Assembly (NCBI GenBank): GCA_020055645.1 | Contig: CM034549.1 | Coordinates: 16,203,930-16,267,929, forward strand | DNA length: 64,000 nucleotides | Direction of reading: 5' to 3' | DNA from: Tomocerus qinae | Taxonomy: Eukaryota; Arthropoda; Collembola; Entomobryomorpha; Tomoceridae | Shown here: positions 13,180 through 54,236 of the stretch, piece after piece | Layout: every line of letters begins with the position of its first letter | How positions within the stretch are numbered: the first letter of the stretch is position 1 | Translations under genes and position numbers: made by a program | Notes under the pieces: model-generated | The model's input: the letters and a program-made list of their open reading frames with translations, nothing else | Database searches by the model: none | What the model was told of the DNA's origin: nothing

Positions 13180-16100
13180 TCATATTTGTATCTCGTTCTT
13201 CAGCCATCCGTCTTCTAGTCGCCTTAAGCCAAGTCGTCTAAATTCATCATAGGCTATCAAAAGGATGGTGAAAGGAAGTGGAGGGAGCCATTCTATGAAC
13301 CTGTGAAATAATTAAGGGAAGATCAACAGAATTATTTGGTTAAAATTACATGCGACTGCCACGCGGACACATTACACATATGAATGTTCGAAACTTACTT
13401 GAGACTCCTCAAGTCCATATCTTCGGCAAAAAAGGGATTGTAGACAAAAAAGGCCGCCAGTAACAATTCAAAAACGATGGCCAAGTACATAAACCAGTTC
13501 CTGTGTTTAGAAAATTATTTTTGGAAATTATTTTTAAAAAATTATATATTTTACTTATAAGTACTTACACTTTTCTCTTCTTGAATATGGTATCTCGTCT
13601 AGATTTGCAACAAAAGACATTAGCAATTTGCATAAGGACGATGGCAACGAAAAATGCTGTTTGAGCATTGGATTCTAGTCTCTTTCTTGCTGCATAAGTC
13701 TAAAACAACCATGATATTAATATCTACATCAGCATTTGTAAGTAAGACGCAAATGAAATGTGAACAAACCCATTCCTGTCCATAAGAGTCCTCCAAGTCG
13801 TTAATAGCTCTGGAATCCCATTTAGCCTTTATGTGATAAAGTTTCCAGGGTAGAAAACCATGAAATGACATTGCCACAAAATAGGTGAAGAATCCTGCGG
13901 TAACTTCTAAGACTGCTAGTTGTCCATAGGTGTAGGACAAAAGTCTAAGAAATAAAAGAAGGATCATATCATAATTTGATATAATTCCCAGAAAAATATA
14001 AAAAAATATTTTAGTTACTGTGCTGTCAGCAGTTTTTGCTTTTTGGGGTTTCTAGGCTTCAATTTCATAATTCCAGGCTCTGCAACTTCGTAGACAATAC
14101 TCACAGCGGGAAGGACATCAGTTCCCAAAACTGTGAGCAACATGGCCATAGTTCCCATTGGCAGAGGACATCTCAGTATAATGAAAACGAAGAAACTGTA
14201 CATCTGAGCTACGTTATCAGCAAGATTGTACTGGAGTAATTTCTTAAGATTATCAAAAATCAGTCGACCCTCCTCAACACCCGTGACAATCGAAGAAAAA
14301 TTATCATCGAGAAGGATCATATCTGCTGTAGCTTTGCAAACTTCTGTTCCCGAACTTCCCATCGCAATTCCAATATCCGCTTTCTTCAGTGCCGGACAAT
14401 CCTTAGATTTACAGTAAAACAATTAGAATTTTTCCCATCGAATTTGGGGATATTAGTGAAAAAATAATTCCTTACATTAACTCCATCACCTGTCGCCGCA
14501 ACAATGAACCCTAGTTTTTGCAACGCTTGTACAATATTATACTTCTGCTCAGGATTGGTTCTTGCAAAAACGATTTCCTTGTACGTTTTCAAAATATGCA
14601 TTAATTCTTCTTCAGCCATATTTCTCAAGTCGTAACCTGTCACAACTCCTGCTGTTATTTCTAGTGGGCTGATTTCTGAAATTGGAACTCCTTTTCTCCG
14701 AGCTTTTTCTCTTCGAGTTTCATTGACTGAATTTATTAATCAGTTTTCAGTTACTATTCGCATGATTTAGCTGCGTATTTTATAATAATGCAAAGAAGCA
14801 AAGTTCTTACATGGAGAAATAATTCCAACTGCTTTAGCAACTGCCACGGCTGTAGAGGCATGGTCTCCAGTCACCATTATTACTTTGATACCTAAAACCA
14901 TGTTTTTTCACGTATATTCAGATGATCTTCATAATCATCACATTCCGCAGGCGTACTGTTCCTTATTAAAAGCAATTTATATTTTTCTCTATTTTGCAAA
15001 ATTATTTATACCTGCATCCCTGCATTTGGAAATGGCCTCTGAAGCTGCGACTCGCGGAGGATCTATCATTGACATTAAGCCAACAAATCGGAGTCCTGCA
15101 TTTAGAAACTCTGGTCTTTCGGGCATGTACTTATAGCCCTTGGAATATTTTTCTTGAGGTAAGAAACAGTCTGCAAATCCTTAAAAACCTAGATGTGTTA
15201 ATATTTTATGTCCAAATATTAAATGCAGGACCTAGGACCATTTAAAATTGTGCTAACCTATAAGGCGCTCTCCCTTCATTCCAAGTTCGTCAATGATTTT
15301 CTCTATTTTGTCTAACCAGATATTATTTAAAGCATATTCCTTATCTTTGATAAGAATTTTCGTGCACAACTTCAGTATTCTTTCAGGAGCTCCCTACGAA
15401 TGAATTCAATAAAAATATTGAGAAATGAGTTGATTACTATTTAGAAGTAAAGGTGTACATACTTTGACCGCAACGAAATGTTTCGGAATGTACGCATTTC
15501 TCAAATCGTACACAAACACTTGATATTTGTCTCGGTAATTGAATGGAATCTCACATAATTTGATATAATTTCTGCGATATTTCTCTACATCCCCAAGGTC
15601 CGTTTCCAAAAGTTTAAGAATTGCTGTTTCTGTAGCGTCTCCATCCACCTCTCTACAAGTCAATGGTTTAAATTACCTTTAATATTTACTGAAGTTGCAA
15701 TTTCCATTTCATGAGATTGTAGCAAAATGATTCTCTGAGTAAATCACCGTTTATTAACAGGAACTTCTGCTTGTTTGGGTTTGAAGCGAGCTCGAGAGCA
15801 CAGAGCAGCAACTCTAGATAGAGCCATAAAACCTGGGTCGTAAATATCAAAAGACTTTCCAGTTGCAAAAAGAGAAGTATCTGCTTCGGCGATCTGATCG
15901 TTAAACCACATGTGAGCAACATTCATTTTATTCTGAGTCAATGTCCCCGTTTTGTCTGCACAAATGACCGAAACAGATCCCAAAGTTTCTACACTTTGCA
16001 AATTTTTCACGATAACATTCTTCTTTGCCATTTTCTGTGCCGTTAATGCCAAAATCATAGTAAAGGTTAATGACAACCCTTCAGGTATATTTGCAACGAT

Positions 16101-39583: not shown

Positions 39584-40013
39584 TATCATTTTGGCTAAAC
39601 TGCAGTTATCCGGCCAGGTTTTTTAGCACCCCAGCACCCCAGCAAGTATTTTCAAAACAAGTCACTATTTGCTTCTTTTTCTAACCTAACCTAATAAAAA
39701 TGAATATAATAAATGTTTGGTTGTTTCAATTTTATTAGGTTAGGTCAAAAAAGAAGCAAATAGTGACTTGTTTTGAAAATACTTGCTGGGGTGCTAGCTA
39801 AACCCTAGCACCCCAGCACCCTAGCACCCCAGCACCCCAGCACCCCAGCAAGTATTTTCAAAACAAGTCACTATTTGCTTCTTTTTCTAACCTAACCTAA
39901 CCTAATAAAAATGAATATAATAAATGTTTGGTTGTTTCAATTTTATTAGGTTAGGTCAAAAAAGAAGCAAATAGTGACTTGTTTTGAAAATACTTGCTGG
40001 GGTGCTAGCTAAA

Positions 40014-40260
40014 CCCTAGCACCCCAGCACCCTAGCACCCCAGCACCCCAGCACCCTAGCACCCCAGCACCCCAGCACCCTAGCACCCTAGCACCCTAGC
40101 ACCCTAGCACCCCAGCACCCCAGCACCCTAGCACCCCAGCACCCCAGCACCCCAGCACCCCAGCACCCCAGCACCCTAGCACCCCAGCACCCCAGCACCC
40201 TAGCACCCCAGCACCCCAGCACCCCAGCACCCCAGCACCCTAGCACCCCAGCACCCCAGC
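40014..40260. repeat. 8-bp minisatellite, C-rich arm
   Basis: About 31 tandem copies of AGCACCCC with AGCACCCT variants. The other strand reads as GGGG runs separated by TGCT, a classic G-quadruplex-capable pattern. The 64-residue ORF on the minus strand here is only the translation of the repeat. Confidence 0.95.
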
Positions 40261-40532
40261 AAGTATTTTCAAAACAAGTCACTATTTGCTTCTTTTTTGA
40301 CCTAACCTAATAAAATTAAAACAACCAAACATTTATTATATTCATTTTTATTAGGTTAGGTTAGAAGAAGGCGGAAATAGTGAAGGATAGTCACGTTATG
40401 AGCCACCCTTCACTATTTCCGCCTTTTTCTAACCTAACCTAATAAAAATGAATATAATAAATGTTTGGTTGTTTCAATTTTATTAGGTTAGGTCAAAAAA
40501 GAAGCAAATAGTGACTTGTTTTGAAAATGCTT

Positions 40533-40671
40533 GCTGGGGTGCTAGGGTGCTGGGGTGCTGGGGTGCTTGGGTGCTAGGGTGCTGGGGTGCTGGGGTGCTG
40601 GGGTGCTAGGGTGCTGGGGTGCTAGGGTGCTGGGGTGCTGGGGTGCTGGGGTGCTAGGGTGCTGGGGTGCT
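40533..40671. repeat. 8-bp minisatellite, G-rich arm
   Basis: About 17 tandem copies of GGGGTGCT or AGGGTGCT, the inverse of the C-rich arm. The array runs directly into the right terminal inverted repeat of the foldback element. Confidence 0.95.
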
Positions 40672-40712
40672 AAAAAACCTGGCCGGATAACTGCAGTTTA
40701 GCCTATCATTTT

Positions 40713-43104: not shown

Positions 43105-43261
43105 ATTATGGTTCGTGGCCGCCATGAGTATTCCAAATTGCGTTGTTCCAATTTCATCATCGTCATCATCTATTCCTTTCCAATTTTAGAGATTTTTTTC
43201 CATCAGACTAAAATTACAGAGTTACCAGGCAATTGTTTCGTTGTTATTTTCTGTACTGTAC

Positions 43262-43672
43262 TGTTACTTCCTCATAGCAATGGTATTACCCATTGCGGAG
43301 TGGCACTTGGATACGCATTCTGATTGGCTGAAATTTTTTGAAATCCAGCCTTCTGATTGGCTATTGCTATAACGAATATTTTATAGATTCCCCAGATGGG
43401 GTAATTTTAACAACACTTTACAATTTACTACAAATTGCAATGCACTACATGAATATCATACACAGGATGCACACAAAGATTATAACTTTGCAAGGTAACG
43501 TTCTCATTCTACTATATGAATCATTTACCACGTATAGTAATTAAAAACCCTGATATTGAAGTGTGAAATGTGAATTATGATAAACTGCCTCCACTTCAAA
43601 CAGATGACTCATTAGGTTTTATTTTACTGCATTGACAGTTGAAAACCAATAATTTTACTCAAATCTATTATA
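43262..43672 (+). repeat. Left terminal inverted repeat
   Basis: Pairs with the inverse of about 48084-48505. It contains two inverted CCAAT boxes (CTGATTGGCTGAAA and CTGATTGGCTATTG). The pairing is broken at 43673 by a nested insertion and resumes for about 19 bp at 44087. Confidence 0.85.
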
Positions 43673-44086
43673 GCAATAAGGCTAAACTGCAGTTATCCGG
43701 CCAGGTTTTTCTTGCACCCCAGCACCCTTGCACCCCAGCACCCTCGGTTTTCTCCTCAATATTGCCCGAAAACGATGCAAAATCAGCAAAGGAAAGATTA
43801 GCAATGTCCTAGCTAGTTTGCGCCATCGCAAGCAAGGACGTGTGTTACCCCACTATGAAGGCACTAGATGTGCATGAAGTTTACAATTATTCCTAAAAAT
43901 TTAATTATTTTAAATCATATAGAAAGTAAAGATAGTAACATCGTCATTCTTCCTTGAAAAAAAATAATTAGTTTACACTGCTAGTATGGTTACATCTCTC
44001 GCTCTGTACGTTAAGTCTGAATGTTTGAATTCTTTATAATATAATTATTACTATGTAATCGATGTATTCTGTATGTTATATTGCTA
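43673..44086. mobile_element. Nested, truncated relative of the foldback transposon
   Basis: Absent from the right TIR, so inserted later than the large element or lost from one arm. At 43680 it starts with the same GGCTAAACTGCAGTTATCCG terminus as the foldback element at 39593. A few degraded 8-bp units (CACCCCAG, CACCCTTG) follow up to about 43745. The rest, to 44086, is unrelated sequence, and the matching right terminus is missing. Confidence 0.7.
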
Positions 44087-44737
44087 CACGGTTAGAAAAA
44101 TTTCTTTAGTAGGTCCACCTTACCAAGCGCAATGCTCTATATTTACCAAAATCTCCCTTTTCTTTCTGGTCGTTTGATCTATTTATAGTAATGATACCTT
44201 ATTAGTGGGAGCTACTACCATACTGTCACTGAGAACGAGTAAGAAAGCCTACCCTACGACTGTGATGCGCAATATCATGCCTATCAAACACGAGGGCCAA
44301 GACGCGTCTAACCACCCGCTGCATTTTAAAACCTGCCATGTGAAGTGACCAAAATTCTATTAATCGGAATTGTTGATTGTTTCTCAACAATTCTTTTGTG
44401 CGAAATAATAAAATATTTTGTTATGATAAAAACATTTGAATTTGGACAAACATGTCGTATGCCTTGGTGATTGATCTACTTTCTGGACTGGAGTTATCAC
44501 ATCTGCTACACGTGTTTCAAGGTAATTAAATATGTTTAAATTTATTATTATTTATACAAATGACAACATTGTAAAAAGAAGGACTGAAAATAGCAATAAA
44601 ATCACTTAAATTATTAAAGCTTTTCTGGCTAAAATTTAAGACTCGAGCGTTTCCTAGGGCCAAAACAGTGTTAGATATAATCTTAGTGTTTATTTAAGGA
44701 AATAAGATTTTAAACACTAAATAAAATCCAACAATCA

Positions 44738-45200
44738 CTACCTTTTCAAATACTCCTGAAATTCAATCCATTCGTTCTTTTCGTCCATTTCTGAAAGTTT
44801 TGTTACATCTTGTGCGTCATTGTTTTATAAAAATAAAATTGTACAATTTACTAATGTATTAACACTAAAAATTAATTTAACTTTGCACTAACGTAAACGA
44901 AGCAAGGTCCAAATTTTCTATTTGTTTTGTACTTTTGCTGAGGTACTCCAATCTATTAGATAAATTCTTAAAATAAAAAATAAAAAACGTTTATCTGTAC
45001 TAATTATTTTTAAAAAGGGCTTACTTGGTTAACTTATTACGAACTCTAGACAGACGCTCATACATTGCGTGACTAAGTATTTTGTCTATTAAGACATCAT
45101 CACTTAAACCTTCAACTAAATGGCCACCGTGTTTTTCCAAATCTCTCCCACTGGTGTCAAAAATCACTTCCCACTTTCGTTTTAATCTATTTAAATCCAT
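44738..45200 (-). CDS. Small hypothetical helical protein inside the TIR element
   Basis: Minus-strand exons 45200-45025, 44952-44933 and 44808-44738 join in frame to 88 residues. It starts MDLNRLKRKWEVIFDTSGRD and ends in a charged helix WIEFQEYLKR. An alternative donor in exon 2 at 44893 would change the last part. The composition (many Leu, Lys, Glu) suggests a coiled coil or other helical bundle. No family is recognised. It is transcribed opposite to the SAM/C2H2 gene, from within that gene's intron. Confidence 0.4.
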
Positions 45201-45397
45201 TTTGGAGGATTATAAAATCTGATTAAATAGTGTCGACGCTATCCACTTCAAGTATTTTGAATTTCGAGGTATTTAGAGAATTTAGACTGCGACATAATAT
45301 ATCAACACAGCATCTAATTTTGTATTCCAAAGCAGTAGTCATCGGTTAATGCTTAATAATCACTTTTGTGTCTGTAAAATTTGTTTGATATTTAGTA

Positions 45398-45775
45398 GCA
45401 ATCATATCACGTACATTGTGATGAACTTTGCTGATCTTGTAGCAATCAAATCACATACAGTAGGATGAACATTGCTGATCCTGTAGCAGTCAAATCATAT
45501 GCCATAGTAATAGTTGTTAGCTGTCAATTAAATTACATTGCTGGTCAGGTAGCAATCAAAAAATATTCCATAGTAATAGTTGTTAGCTGTCAATTATATT
45601 ACATTGCTGGTCCGGCAGCAATCAAATCATACTCCATAGTATAAGTTGTTAGCTGTCAAATACATTGCATTGCTGGTCCGGCAGCAATCAAATCATATTC
45701 CATAGTATTAGTTGTTAGCTGTCAATTACATTGCATTGCTGGTCCAGCAGCAATGAAATCATGCTAAAAAAATAT
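45398..45775 (+). repeat. Tandem repeat array, unit about 67 bp
   Basis: About five to six copies of a unit containing AGCAATCAAATCATA, TAGTTGTTAGCTGTCAA and TTGCATTGCTGGTCC. The first copies are more diverged than the last. Fragments of the unit (AGCAATCAAAT, GTTAGCTGTCAA) recur at about 46650-46750 on the other side of the zinc-finger ORF. Confidence 0.85.
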
Positions 45776-48070
45776 TAGATGAAGACCATATGTTTTTTCT
45801 GCCATTTTTGTTTGGCTAGACTTCCGTAGTGATTGCCTGAAAATACTTAATTATAAATTTTCACTTTTCAATATTGATTTAAATGTTTCAGGTGAAGGCT
45901 ATGATGATGAGGCAATAATTTCTGCAACGGACACAGATTTGTCTGGGACTTAACTTGGGAAGTCGACGAAAGCTGCTAAGTCAAATCGTACTTATTAAGT
46001 CAAAACAGGTCTTTATTTGTCATTCATGTAAAAATGGGTTTATATCTTTGGTAGATCTATTGCGTCACTTTTCTAGCCATGGATTACATCAAAAAGGGAG
46101 GTATCAATGTGTTCACTGTAATTCTGTGTTCGATTCCAAGAAAGGGATTTATAATCATTTTAGACGCTTTTTCGCTGCACATGATTTAATTCGAAGTTGC
46201 AACTCAAACAAACATGCTAATGGCATGGAGAACAGCAACAATATGGAAACTGATCCTTCTAATTTAGAGAGCAATGAAATTCTAATCAATGAAAATGTAG
46301 AAAGTTGTAACAACACTTTGTCTTTAGAGACTATTCAAAATATTGCTGCGAAATTAAGAGCTCAGTTACTTTCATCAGGTAAAGTACCAATGTCAACTTG
46401 TGAACAGGCTATTGCTAAATTTAAAATATTAATTGTTGAAATTGTAAAAAGCTGTATAGATATTGCCAGAGCCACAATTAGTATGGCAAACGATAATCAA
46501 AAGCTGTTACACATAAAACGAATGGAAAATTATTATGACCCGTTTGCCTCCATTTAATCACACTTTGACTGTCCATCTTTGAATTGATAGAATTTAATTA
46601 GTTACATATAAGTTGCAAAGTAAGCAGGTATGGTGAAAATGTAGCATTTATTTGTTAGCTGTCAAAGTAATCAGATATGATGGTAATTAAGCAATCAAAT
46701 GTTAGCAGTCAAAGTAGGCAGATGTGGTGGAAGATTAGCAATCAAATACTATTAACGTAACACAGAGTTTTTAACTGTTTTAAACTAAATAGATGTTATA
46801 TGTTCTGGGTTTTTAATCATGTTATTTTATTATTGAAACTATAGATGACATTAATATTGTTGCGTTTCTTGTCCTGCCTATCATTCTTCCCCAATGTGGC
46901 CGAAAATCTGTGGGAATAAATGAGCCGACGGAAGCTGCGAAAGTCATTAGAACATCAGGACGAAAGAGAAAGAACGATTCTCAAGAACAGGATTCCAATA
47001 TCAGAACAATTAAGGCTTCAAAAATAGAATACCTTGCGTCTATGTTGGTGCAAAAACCAGTAAGGTTTAAGATATTATTTCATTATCCAAATATTTGATT
47101 ATATTGTGATTAATAGTAGACATTTTCTTGTAACATACATGTACTGTTGTTTAATTTGCACAGGAAACCTTCAATCCAAAGGAGATTCTAATGGGAAACA
47201 ACAGGAACAGTCAGTTTATTCTTGACATTGGAAATTATATCAGTCTGAATTTCAAAAATTTTTGGATTGTCTTGGATAAGTATCTAATTCCCTGTGAACC
47301 TAACTTTTTAAATGCTTTAGATACTTGTTTTAAGACTTTGTGGTTTTTTCAAAGGAATCTTTGGCCCCTTGGCAATTTATCGATATAGCTGTATTTGGAA
47401 GGCGCATTGACCCAAAGGTAGTACCTGCAGCTGTGCAGGGTTTATTGGGCCAAATAATGTTAAGAATTAATTCTTAGGTTAACTTATTAGGCCTTAATTA
47501 ATTAATTGGCTAAACATATTTTATAATGGCTTTAATATCAATGAATATTTCATTTTTTAAATTTAATCTGTAAAGTGGATGCTATAAATTGATTTTAATT
47601 GTATAACTTGTACCAGTGCTGTTATGATTTATTATTGTATTTTGTACAGCTTTTGCTAAGATAGTTAAGAAAATTGTATTCTAGGCAGCAAATTGTATGA
47701 ATTAATTGATCTGTATCATAATGAAATTATTTCATCTTGAATAATAAAATTTTATATAATAAATGGGGTAATGTGAAACATAATTGCATTTTATTCCTTG
47801 CACAATCCTTGAATCAAACACTGATTTGGTTCTAAGGCGATTTTGGTGGAGAAAGGCAATTTTTACTTTGATTAGAGTAACCTGATTAGTCTAAATAGGG
47901 TAACCCGAAAAGCATTGCTTCCCTTGCGATCTAGTAGATTTTGAATAAAAGTTTAACTCTAAATAGGATTAAATTAGCTGCCTGGTGCTTCTTGCAACTC
48001 TTAGTGCGGAAATAGAGCTGATGCCCGTCATTTGGGAAACATACTAAAGTTTTGGTCTATATCGACCATT

Positions 48071-48505
48071 CCTTTCTAACCGTGTATTATAGGTTGAGTA
48101 AAATTATGTGTTTGCAACTGCCAATGCAGTAAAATGAAACCGAATGTGTCATCTGTTTGAATTGGAGGCAGTTTATCAATAACTCACATTTCACACTTCA
48201 ACAACATCGGGGCATTTAATTACTATACGCGTTAAATGATTCATAATAGTTAGTAGAATGAGAACGAATTGTTGTTGTGCCATGCAAAGTGTCTTTGTGT
48301 GCATCCTATGATATTCATGTAGTGCATTGTAATTTGTAGTAAATTGTAAAGTATTGCTAAAATTCCCCCATCTGGGGAATCTATAAAATATTCGTTATAG
48401 CAATAGCCAATCAGAAGGCTGGATTTCAAAAAATTTCAGCCAATCAGAATGCGTATCCAAGTGCCACTCCGCAATGGGTAATACCATTGCTATGAGGAAG
48501 TAACA
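48071..48505 (-). repeat. Right terminal inverted repeat
   Basis: Inverse of 43262-43672 plus 44087-44105. It is uninterrupted here, so it represents the original repeat arm. It ends about 108 bp before the start codon of the GHITM paralogue. Confidence 0.85.
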
Positions 48506-48612
48506 GTACTCAGATTACTTTTGGCAATATCATTAGTGATTACTAAAAGCGTTTCGTAGTTGTACAAGATTTCGGGTCTACGGCAGGGTGAAAAAACTTG
48601 GCTACAGTGAAG

Positions 48613-52676: not shown

Positions 52677-52857
52677 ACGTAAAAATTCTATAATTTCGTG
52701 CATTATGCCTGTAATAAACTCCCATTTTTCATATTATCTTGCAAACAGCTTTTGTATTGACATATCAGATAAAAGTGGGTAGCAAATATTTTTTTCATTT
52801 ATAGCAATGACAGTTCAATGTTACGAATATTATTTTTCACAGTATTCATCAATAATT
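52677..52857 (+). repeat. Left arm of a 180-bp inverted repeat
   Basis: Nearly identical, in inverse orientation, to 54058-54236. It includes GCATTATGCCTGTAATAAAC and CAATGACAGTTCAATGTTAC. The differences are a few substitutions and small indels. Confidence 0.85.
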
Positions 52858-52991
52858 ATCCAAGGATCAAAAGTAGATTAAGTCTACGTCTTAAAACTAA
52901 ACCTGTAATTAGTTATAGATTAAATAATAAATATGAATTTTTCTTTGTAGATAATTTGAAAAATATTAGAAACAAGTATTATAATAATGAA

Positions 52992-53390
52992 TCACAAAAG
53001 ATGACATTTCTCTTCTAGTGGGCGACAATTTGATTTATCTGTAGCATGTCCACATTCGCAACGTGAAGTAGAGAAGTCACATCGCAAACACGATTCACTG
53101 TTATCTAATGTCCAGCAGTGTTTTTTGACATCCGGGTCATTTTTCTTGATTTTTTCTTTCCGAGTGTCCATTACTCTGATGGTTTCTACAATATTCTTGG
53201 AATCTTCTGCTACCTGATATTCTTCTGCCGAAGCCTTGAAAGCGTGGTAGTCGCATTTGTCCCCTACTCTCGCTTCATTGTCTTGATGAATGATAACATG
53301 TCCATGGTTGTTGTGATGCCCACTTGCAACGGTTTGTACAAGTATTAGCATCAAGCTGACAATCAGAAGGGTAGTTTTTGACGTAGGCAT
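52992..53390 (-). CDS. Small secreted cysteine-rich protein, function unknown
   Basis: An uninterrupted frame of 132 residues from ATG 53390. An ATG 16 codons upstream (53438) is also in frame, but the chosen start places the signal peptide (TTLLIVSLMLILVQTVASG) at the N-terminus. The mature part is His-rich at first (GHHNNHGHVIIH), then charged. It has eight Cys residues, six of them in the last 40 residues, spaced as CWTLDNSESCLRC, CEC, C and C. The even cysteine count suggests disulfide bonding. No known family was recognised. The gene has no intron and lies between the two arms of a 180-bp inverted repeat. Confidence 0.65.
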   Translation of the reverse strand: MPTSKTTLLIVSLMLILVQTVASGHHNNHGHVIIHQDNEARVGDKCDYHAFKASAEEYQVAEDSKNIVETIRVMDTRKEKIKKNDPDVKKHCWTLDNSESCLRCDFSTSRCECGHATDKSNCRPLEEKCHLL

Positions 53391-54057
53391 TTTATGGACC
53401 ACTTCGCCAAATCTATTATAGTATCGTATCTTTTTCACTATGAAATATCAATAAATTTTTTTCTGTAAAAATGCTAACTGCATAAAAAATTCTCTTAATC
53501 AAGAAATGCTTATGAAATAATTGTATTACTATATTATGTATAGTTAATGTTATGAATGATTAAATATAGAGTTAATATGTTACACTTATGAGCTGCTTTT
53601 TATTCAAAGTCGAATCCTCAGTATCCAGAGTAAGATTGAGTTTGTATTTATTTCTGCATCTATATACAGTAAATTATGAACTGAGTTTTCAATATTAAAG
53701 TTAGTATCAGTACATTCACCTTTCTTTAAATCAATTCATAATGTTTATTACCTATTCTTCAATTGACAAATGTAGTTAACCTGGTTAAAAATTACATTTT
53801 AAAAAAAATATTTAACATAACCTAAGGGTAGTAACAACGTGGACACACCTTAAATAAAAATTTATGATGTTCAACCTGGTTATTACCTACACAGCAGAAG
53901 CGTTTCAAATATCATTCATAGAGCGTTTCGTTATTTAAAGGATATTTCATTGTATTTAGAACGTATTTAGCACTATAAAACCATTTTAATCATCAGAGTA
54001 TTTCTATTATACAGGGAAACTGAATCACTGTGATCTATCTACATTTAATTTTTGAAA

Positions 54058-54236
54058 TTATTGATGAATTAGTGTGAAAAATAATATTCGTAACATTGAA
54101 CTGTCATTACTATAAATGAAAAAAAAAATTTTGCTACCCATCTTTATATGTCAATAATACAAAAGCTGTTTGCATGATAATATGAAAAATGGGAGTTTAT
54201 TACAGGCATAATGCATGAAATTATAGAATTTTACGT
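54058..54236 (-). repeat. Right arm of the 180-bp inverted repeat
   Basis: Inverse copy of 52677-52857. The two arms enclose 1.2 kb holding the small secreted protein gene. No target duplication is evident at the outer edges. Confidence 0.85.

Follow-up and report, generated by a model that had tools for sequence, protein, structure and literature searches.

How does a unit bounded by long terminal inverted repeats (TIRs) come to encode SAM and C2H2 zinc finger proteins and no recognizable transposase? The question is raised by a locus of Tomocerus qinae at approximately positions 43261 to 48506 of a 64,000-nucleotide (nt) window (the whole stretch analyzed; assembly GCA_020055645.1, contig CM034549.1, forward strand, 16,203,930 to 16,267,929), which a sequence-only reading had taken for one 5.2-kb element. 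From comparisons with the genome of the same animal (334 Mb, 115 contigs), we are confident that the locus consists of two nested cut-and-paste transposons, the inner one being an internal-deletion derivative of an element whose SAM-C2H2-DDE transposase has a predicted RAG1-like fold. In its gene content, the window appears to be arthropod-like. Below, positions without a locus label are window coordinates (feature coordinates are collected in Table 1), the window's contig is C4, loci of the same genome are labeled L0xx, and F29, F32, and F33 denote L029+L049, L032+L050+L052, and L033+L051+L053, respectively.

The sharp outer ends (TGTTAC..GTAACA) and the inverted repeats of approximately 430 bp described earlier are indeed present, the two arms (43258-43672 and 48085-48509) aligning with 88% identity over 431 columns. 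They are not single copy: with the left arm as a 501-nt query, at least 47 matches with 84 to 100% identity were found in the genome (the best 40 of 821 first-look candidates were scored). With one mismatch at most allowed, a 45-nt segment of the TIR was located at 21 sites on four contigs (C1, C2, C4, and C5), and the same pattern read backwards, serving as the control, gave 0 sites; 18 of the 21 form nine opposed pairs, seven of which span 1.22 to 1.33 kb, one 2.8 kb, and the window pair 5.2 kb. Such a pair of inverted arms might also be produced by a local inversion-duplication of DNA that is not mobile, but in the face of so many dispersed and paired sites this explanation is practically negligible, and the multicopy TIRs and uninterrupted sites confirm the unit as mobile DNA, as had been supposed. 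The dispersed copies, mostly approximately 1.25 kb, are short, framed by TIRs and a duplication of fixed length, and free of a transposase, all of which characterize a miniature inverted-repeat transposable element (MITE); TA-duplicating MITEs in particular share the short length, the lack of visible coding sequence, the long, near-perfect TIRs, and the fixed duplication. In the window copy, the outer 203 nt of the arms are 98% complementary and the outer 144 nt agree at 143/144 positions. Across 10 MITE copies, the outer 144 nt agree at 141 to 144 positions, and inward of them the arms are less alike in 9 copies (234/290 columns in the window), the exception being L044 (270/271). Each outer TIR holds two copies of TTCTGATTGGCT, 33 nt apart (43318 and 43351 on the left, 48405 and 48438 on the right), with no further site at up to one mismatch in the window outside these TIRs; they are candidates for transposase sites or for sites of the CCAAT type. 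L062 (C1:112852330-112855190), a 2.8-kb copy with an unexplained extra stretch of approximately 1.5 kb, was considered as a possible autonomous partner of the MITE; no transposase-like frame was recognized in it, the longest being 117 amino acids (aa), and among the copies studied no autonomous partner was found. Inside the outer MITE, positions 43679 to 43743 are a 65-nt end fragment of the family of a GC-rich repeat at 39592-40704, which has inverted ends (GGCTAAACTGCAGTTATCCGGCCAGG) and many 8/16-bp subrepeats of the GCACCCCA type.

The target duplication of the outer element had been read as possibly the 4-bp sequence GTAC. Fifteen copies, the window included, follow the pattern NTAC|TG..CA|GTAN, in which C adjoins TG in 14 and G adjoins CA in 14, and the base outside TA varies (A/A in L006 and L065, T/T in L005, G/T in L063 and L064, G/G in L041); GTAC stands on both sides in only 6. 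Since the C and G hardly vary and the outermost base does, the duplicated sequence is TA, the element ends being CTGTTAC..GTAACAG, and GTAC is rejected. Against this reading, one of the two TA copies is missing in L007 and L047, and the decayed L003 lacks the left one. Ginger2 elements, which according to the excerpt of PMC2836005 used here have TGTNR ends and a 4-bp duplication, were ruled out by the same 15 copies as a class for the outer element.

The relatives of the SAM/C2H2 gene start at a point equivalent to position 44087, well within the MITE: CACGGTCC opens L029, L030, and the inner stretch alike, and the flanks differ. When the two flanks of this stretch were joined in silico, the match ran across the junction in four of four uninterrupted MITE copies, the exact join being unchanged over 18+18 nt in L043 and L062 and over 8+8 nt in nine loci. 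Because uninterrupted copies read through the exact junction, the stretch between (3,998 bp) is a second transposon that inserted into the MITE and duplicated TA, which is unduplicated in L043 and L062; the outer element arrived first and the inner one later. What had been seen as one 5.2-kb unit is thus an element within an element, and the long TIRs and the SAM/C2H2 gene belong to different transposons. A single non-autonomous carrier combining both would account for the nearly identical outer ends and the genes enclosed by them, and the enzyme that mobilizes the MITE could in principle still move the whole 5.25 kb. We nevertheless consider such a carrier highly improbable, given MITE copies that lack the genes and read through the junction, gene relatives with ends of their own, and no sighting of a second composite copy (a stretch of the downstream gene 2, 46842-47700, occurs at full identity once in the genome, with 4/4 candidates scored).

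The window SAM/C2H2 protein has 20 matches in the genome, including frames of 860, 856 (twice), 867, and 906 aa, and its full-length relatives encode a SAM-C2H2-DDE protein of approximately 860 aa. Three parent elements were read to both ends, namely, F29 (11,702 bp), F32 (11,822 bp; right end at 14527, by comparison with L031), and F33 (11,041 bp); in transposase sequence, F32 shares 47% and F33 42% identity with F29. Each of the three elements is bounded by CAC..GTG ends (CACGG, CACTG, and CACAC types were seen). At all six insertions with both ends read, the window included, there is a 2-bp duplication (TA five times, CA once), a length that also occurs in some EnSpm elements. L031 and L032 occupy two places that differ in their flanks, and their sequences agree at 99.8% over 7.8 kb, an indication of recent movement.

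The full relatives carry the catalytic residues D338, D432, and E681, together with C452-C455 and H657-H661, in a region that is absent from the window copy. An AlphaFold model of the approximately 860-aa transposase matches RAG1, BbRAGL (ProtoRAG), and HzTransib, from which it differs in having a SAM/C2H2 N terminus and in sequence (8 to 13% identity over the aligned part). Cut-and-paste transposition by a RAG1-like DDE enzyme is strongly supported by this predicted fold and by the residues, and the C terminus may have a BAH-like fold. SAM and C2H2 domains, which had been thought foreign to transposases, are here the N-terminal part of a transposase of the CACTA/EnSpm-like (CMCT) type. The verdict of "no transposase" therefore holds for the window copy, which ends before the core, and does not hold for its full-length relatives.

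CMCT (CACTA/EnSpm and kin) is a known mechanism class (PMC12730594, used here and below in excerpt). The parent elements share with it a DDE triad with C(2)C and H(3-4)H between the second D and the E, 5'-CA..TG-3' ends (CACGG..CCGTG in the window), a target duplication within the range of 2 to 5 bp (2 bp, 6/6), and, in the AlphaFold model, a RAG1/Transib-like fold. Unlike the CMCT elements in the excerpt, they have an N-terminal SAM domain with two C2H2 fingers, a possibly BAH-like C-terminal fold, an opposite-strand gene in intron 1, and oriented arrays; one subclade carries a kinase gene as well. Two narrower classes differ from the parent elements in one of these features each: EnSpm families with CAC..GTG ends are described there as duplicating 3 bp, versus TA (once CA) here, and Plavaka ends as TGT..ACA or CATCA..TGATG, versus CAC..GTG here.

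The two opposed genes reported earlier (plus-strand SAM and SAM/C2H2 exons; minus-strand exons at 45200-45024 and 44824-44741) are both present in the window copy, as are two features that had gone unmentioned, namely, another plus-strand coding remnant at 46844-47477 and an additional array at 46616-46747. Homology to F29 stops at 46562 (residue ~237 of 860); from 46844 on, within gene 2, the coding sequence is again homologous. Approximately 8 kb of the F29 layout is missing, and with it the entire catalytic core, the beginning of gene 2, and the kinase gene; the core enzyme, already suspected to be absent, was removed by an internal deletion. The exon 2 frame is broken near 45940, within SAM (a sequencing error is possible), the C2H2 frame is open for 212 codons (45919-46557), and the frame of the last gene 2 exon is broken near 47370. 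The small opposite-strand gene of intron 1, found at 4263-3779 (minus strand) in L029, had no match in a Pfam search. It is because of the same-genome relatives that the window remnants can be tied to the transposase family. Searching the protein collection with the window SAM/C2H2 protein gave 443 and 4,678 candidates, none of which was scored, and viral contigs gave no match; a profile of 63 relatives reached bit scores of at most 4.4 on the window remnants and is not used as evidence.

Taken together, we are confident that a non-autonomous, TA-duplicating MITE with TIRs of 415 to 430 bp inserted first and that an unrelated CACGG..CCGTG element then inserted into it, again duplicating TA. 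The ancestor of the inner element encoded a SAM-C2H2-DDE transposase, with a small opposite-strand gene in its intron and gene 2 downstream, and one subclade of the family also has a kinase/coiled-coil/C2H2 gene within a gene 2 intron. Approximately 8 kb (relative to F29) was then lost by an internal deletion that starts where the C2H2/linker region ends and reaches the last exons of gene 2. It left the window copy with its ends, its arrays, and a DNA-binding N terminus, unable to make the enzyme; any mobility of this copy would be in trans.

Several observations weigh against this account. Close relatives of the inner element are few (L058, itself deleted, 78% identical; L029 and L030, 71%), and movement was not observed for any element. 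The window SAM falls under the Pfam cut-off (E value, 0.029). Among the parents, the F29 frame has no transposase match in Pfam at an E value of ≤0.1, that of F32 matches only Plavaka (0.002), and that of F33 reaches 25.1 bits for tnp2 (PF02992), under the cut-off of 28.6, with no PF02992 match in F29 or F32 at ≤0.1. The Plavaka profile, PF18759, scores 31.5 bits with P0040 (above the cut-off of 26.3) and 17.8 bits with F32 (below it), with no match in F29 or F33 at ≤0.1. Finally, the shortened relative L039 (60% identical) is deleted in nearly the same place, which means that the deletion may predate the window copy or that this region may readily lose sequence.

This last point also bears on whether the inner copy, or its lineage, was retained as a repressor or host gene, the coreless SAM+C2H2 protein being the product itself. 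The P element offers a parallel: KP is a 207-aa repressor protein encoded by a short, internally deleted copy (PMC7776569, in excerpt), and the copies described here are likewise short and internally deleted and retain their ends. A SAM/C2H2 N terminus of approximately 240 aa and the arrays survive the deletion, L039 has nearly the same one, and the C2H2 frame remains open. Retention in this role is nonetheless improbable, as the window frame is broken inside SAM, where an open N-terminal frame of the KP type is not found (subject to the possible sequencing error), L039 has stops, and a third relative, L058, has lost the C2H2 part as well. P elements themselves belong to a different superfamily. 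By analogy with KP and the P element, N-terminal-only derivatives may still compete with full-length transposase. SAM polymerization might line up the C2H2 fingers on the phased internal arrays.

These arrays, one of which the sequence-only reading had correctly noted (66-bp units are present at 45469-45762, 4.5 copies), are a recurrent feature: tandem arrays lie in introns or between genes in 5/5 elements examined (window, F29, F32, F33, and L039), with an intron 1 array in 4 of them and three motif copies only in intron 1 of F29. Periods of 33 bp or multiples thereof are frequent in F29, F32, and F33; those of the window are 44, 66, and 47 bp and those of L039 34 and 49 bp. Each family has a motif of its own, mostly or solely on the plus strand. 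TAGCNNTCAA occurs 10 times in the inner element and nowhere in the remaining 58.7 kb of the window (Markov mean, 0.07; maximum, 2; 500 runs), 19 times in F29 and 0 times in its flanks (mean, 0.34; maximum, 2; 200 runs), and 11 times in L058. TAGCNNYCAA occurs 13 times in L039 and twice in the rest of the window, GGCTGNCAA 23 times in F32, and GCAGNCTNCAC 41 times on the plus and twice on the minus strand of F33. Having been picked after inspection of the arrays, the motifs yield counts that are descriptive and no independent test. Tandem copying suffices to explain a shared motif strand within one array, but not between separate arrays, and the motifs may be bound by the SAM-C2H2 or the kinase-C2H2 proteins.

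The surprising part of the finding is the kinase-bearing parent family. Of the 35 transposase loci scored, 28, the window included, have gene 2 downstream of the transposase in the same orientation; a Pfam search gave no match for gene 2, and five gene 2 loci have no transposase match within 15 kb. Between transposase and gene 2, a protein kinase gene was found at 10 of the 35 loci and, by this search, is absent from 25. PF00069 is matched with E values of 1.1e-48 (F29), 3.9e-39 (F32), and 4.4e-42 (F33), and in each case there follow a stretch that by eye resembles a coiled coil and then C2H2 fingers; F29 and F32 encode the kinase on the plus strand, F33 on the minus strand. Because L038 has a transposase and gene 2 with no credible kinase match (best row, E value of 0.079 over 21 aa), we read the kinase as having been gained within the transposon family, inside an intron of gene 2, with loss in the other members as the alternative. 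In the one pair compared (F33 and L034), the kinase is under purifying selection, with a ratio of nonsynonymous to synonymous rates (dN/dS) of 0.12 over the kinase exons (21 synonymous and 10 nonsynonymous changes, 7 of the latter in the last exon piece; Fisher p, 3e-8); in the same pair, compared without gaps, the coil has a ratio of 0.23, the fingers 0.22, and the transposase 0.17. Cruder values from raw open frames are 1.05 and 0.66 for two kinase frames, each containing sequence not taken for kinase, and 0.63 for gene 2 over 62 codons, the last exon being outside coverage.

The kinase might serve the element in some way, or it might be a chance passenger from the host with no role in the element's life. 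Its absence from most transposase loci, such as L038, and its differing orientation among subfamilies would suit a passenger, which we regard as unlikely, though by no means far-fetched: the kinase is common to three subfamilies with diverged transposases, the coiled coil and fingers accompany it in 3/3 elements read, and its dN/dS is low in the pair compared. Fungal IS3EU transposons similarly carry a kinase gene beside the transposase, although from another transposase superfamily and with an alpha-kinase rather than a PF00069 kinase, and the excerpt of PMC12730594 makes no mention of a coiled coil or C2H2 fingers for them. A kinase in a DNA transposon thus has precedent. In the open-access full-text literature searched, we saw no report of SAM-C2H2 or protein-kinase-bearing elements of CACTA-like type. 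We tentatively speculate that all of this describes a RAG1-fold, CACTA-like clade in which kinase, coil, and C2H2 form a lasting, selected component, the arrays act as a binding platform, and core-deleted copies are natural dominant negatives.

For annotation, it helps that SAM/C2H2 genes in this genome are N termini of RAG1-fold transposases and that "uncharacterized" arthropod proteins fall in the same enzyme family. The elements also provide a natural set in which a kinase was seemingly gained within a family, kept under selection, and inverted in one branch; comparison of close relatives with and without it offers a way to test what use a transposon makes of a kinase. With the deletion copies and arrays, SAM-driven DNA assembly can be put to the test, as can KP-like self-repression in a system other than the P element.

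Table 1. Features of the nested elements, in window coordinates unless a locus is named
Feature	Position	Strand	Basis or remark
Outer element (MITE), including insert	43261-48506		Multicopy TIR; ends and TA from 15 copies
TA duplication of outer element, left	43259-43260		Copy comparison and uninterrupted sites
TA duplication of outer element, right	48507-48508		Copy comparison and uninterrupted sites
Left TIR, outer element	43261-43672	+	Arm-versus-arm alignment
Middle part, outer element	43673-44086	+	Last two bases (TA) duplicated by inner insertion
Right TIR, outer element	48085-48506	-	Starts with second TA of inner duplication
Inner element	44087-48084	+	3,998 bp, CACGG..CCGTG; relatives' ends and uninterrupted MITE copies
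TA duplication of inner element, left	44085-44086		Unduplicated in L043, L062
TA duplication of inner element, right	48085-48086		Unduplicated in L043, L062
Inner TIR, left	44087-44098	+	CACGGTTAGAAA, 12/12 matched
Inner TIR, right	48073-48084	-	Pairs with CACGGTTAGAAA at left
Transposase remnant, exon 1 (first half of SAM)	44452-44521	+	67% identical to L029 exon 1 over 24 aa
Small opposite-strand gene, exon 2	44741-44824	-	Same-place comparison with L029/L030
Small opposite-strand gene, exon 1	45024-45200	-	In transposase intron 1; 57% identical over 54 aa to counterpart in L029/L030
Tandem array, 44- and 66-bp units	45395-45762	+	7/10 plus-strand TAGCNNTCAA motifs
Transposase remnant, exon 2 start (second half of SAM, two C2H2 fingers)	45892-46557	+	Open 45919-46557
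Deletion junction	46563-46641		L029 homology runs up to 46562
Second tandem array, 47-bp units	46616-46747	+	3/10 TAGCNNTCAA motifs
Gene 2 remnant, penultimate exon	46844-47059	+	50% identical to F29 13715-13924 (= L049 3715-3924)
Gene 2 remnant, last exon	47164-47477	+	59% identical to F29 14220-14543 (= L049 4220-4543)
Kinase/coil/C2H2 stretch in gene 2	L029+L049 10283-12922; L032+L050 9686-12650; L033+L051 9109-11257 (minus)		

Elsewhere in the window, at 52677-54236, an inverted-repeat pair of approximately 200 nt (89% identity), with ends 1.56 kb apart, is probably a further TIR element.

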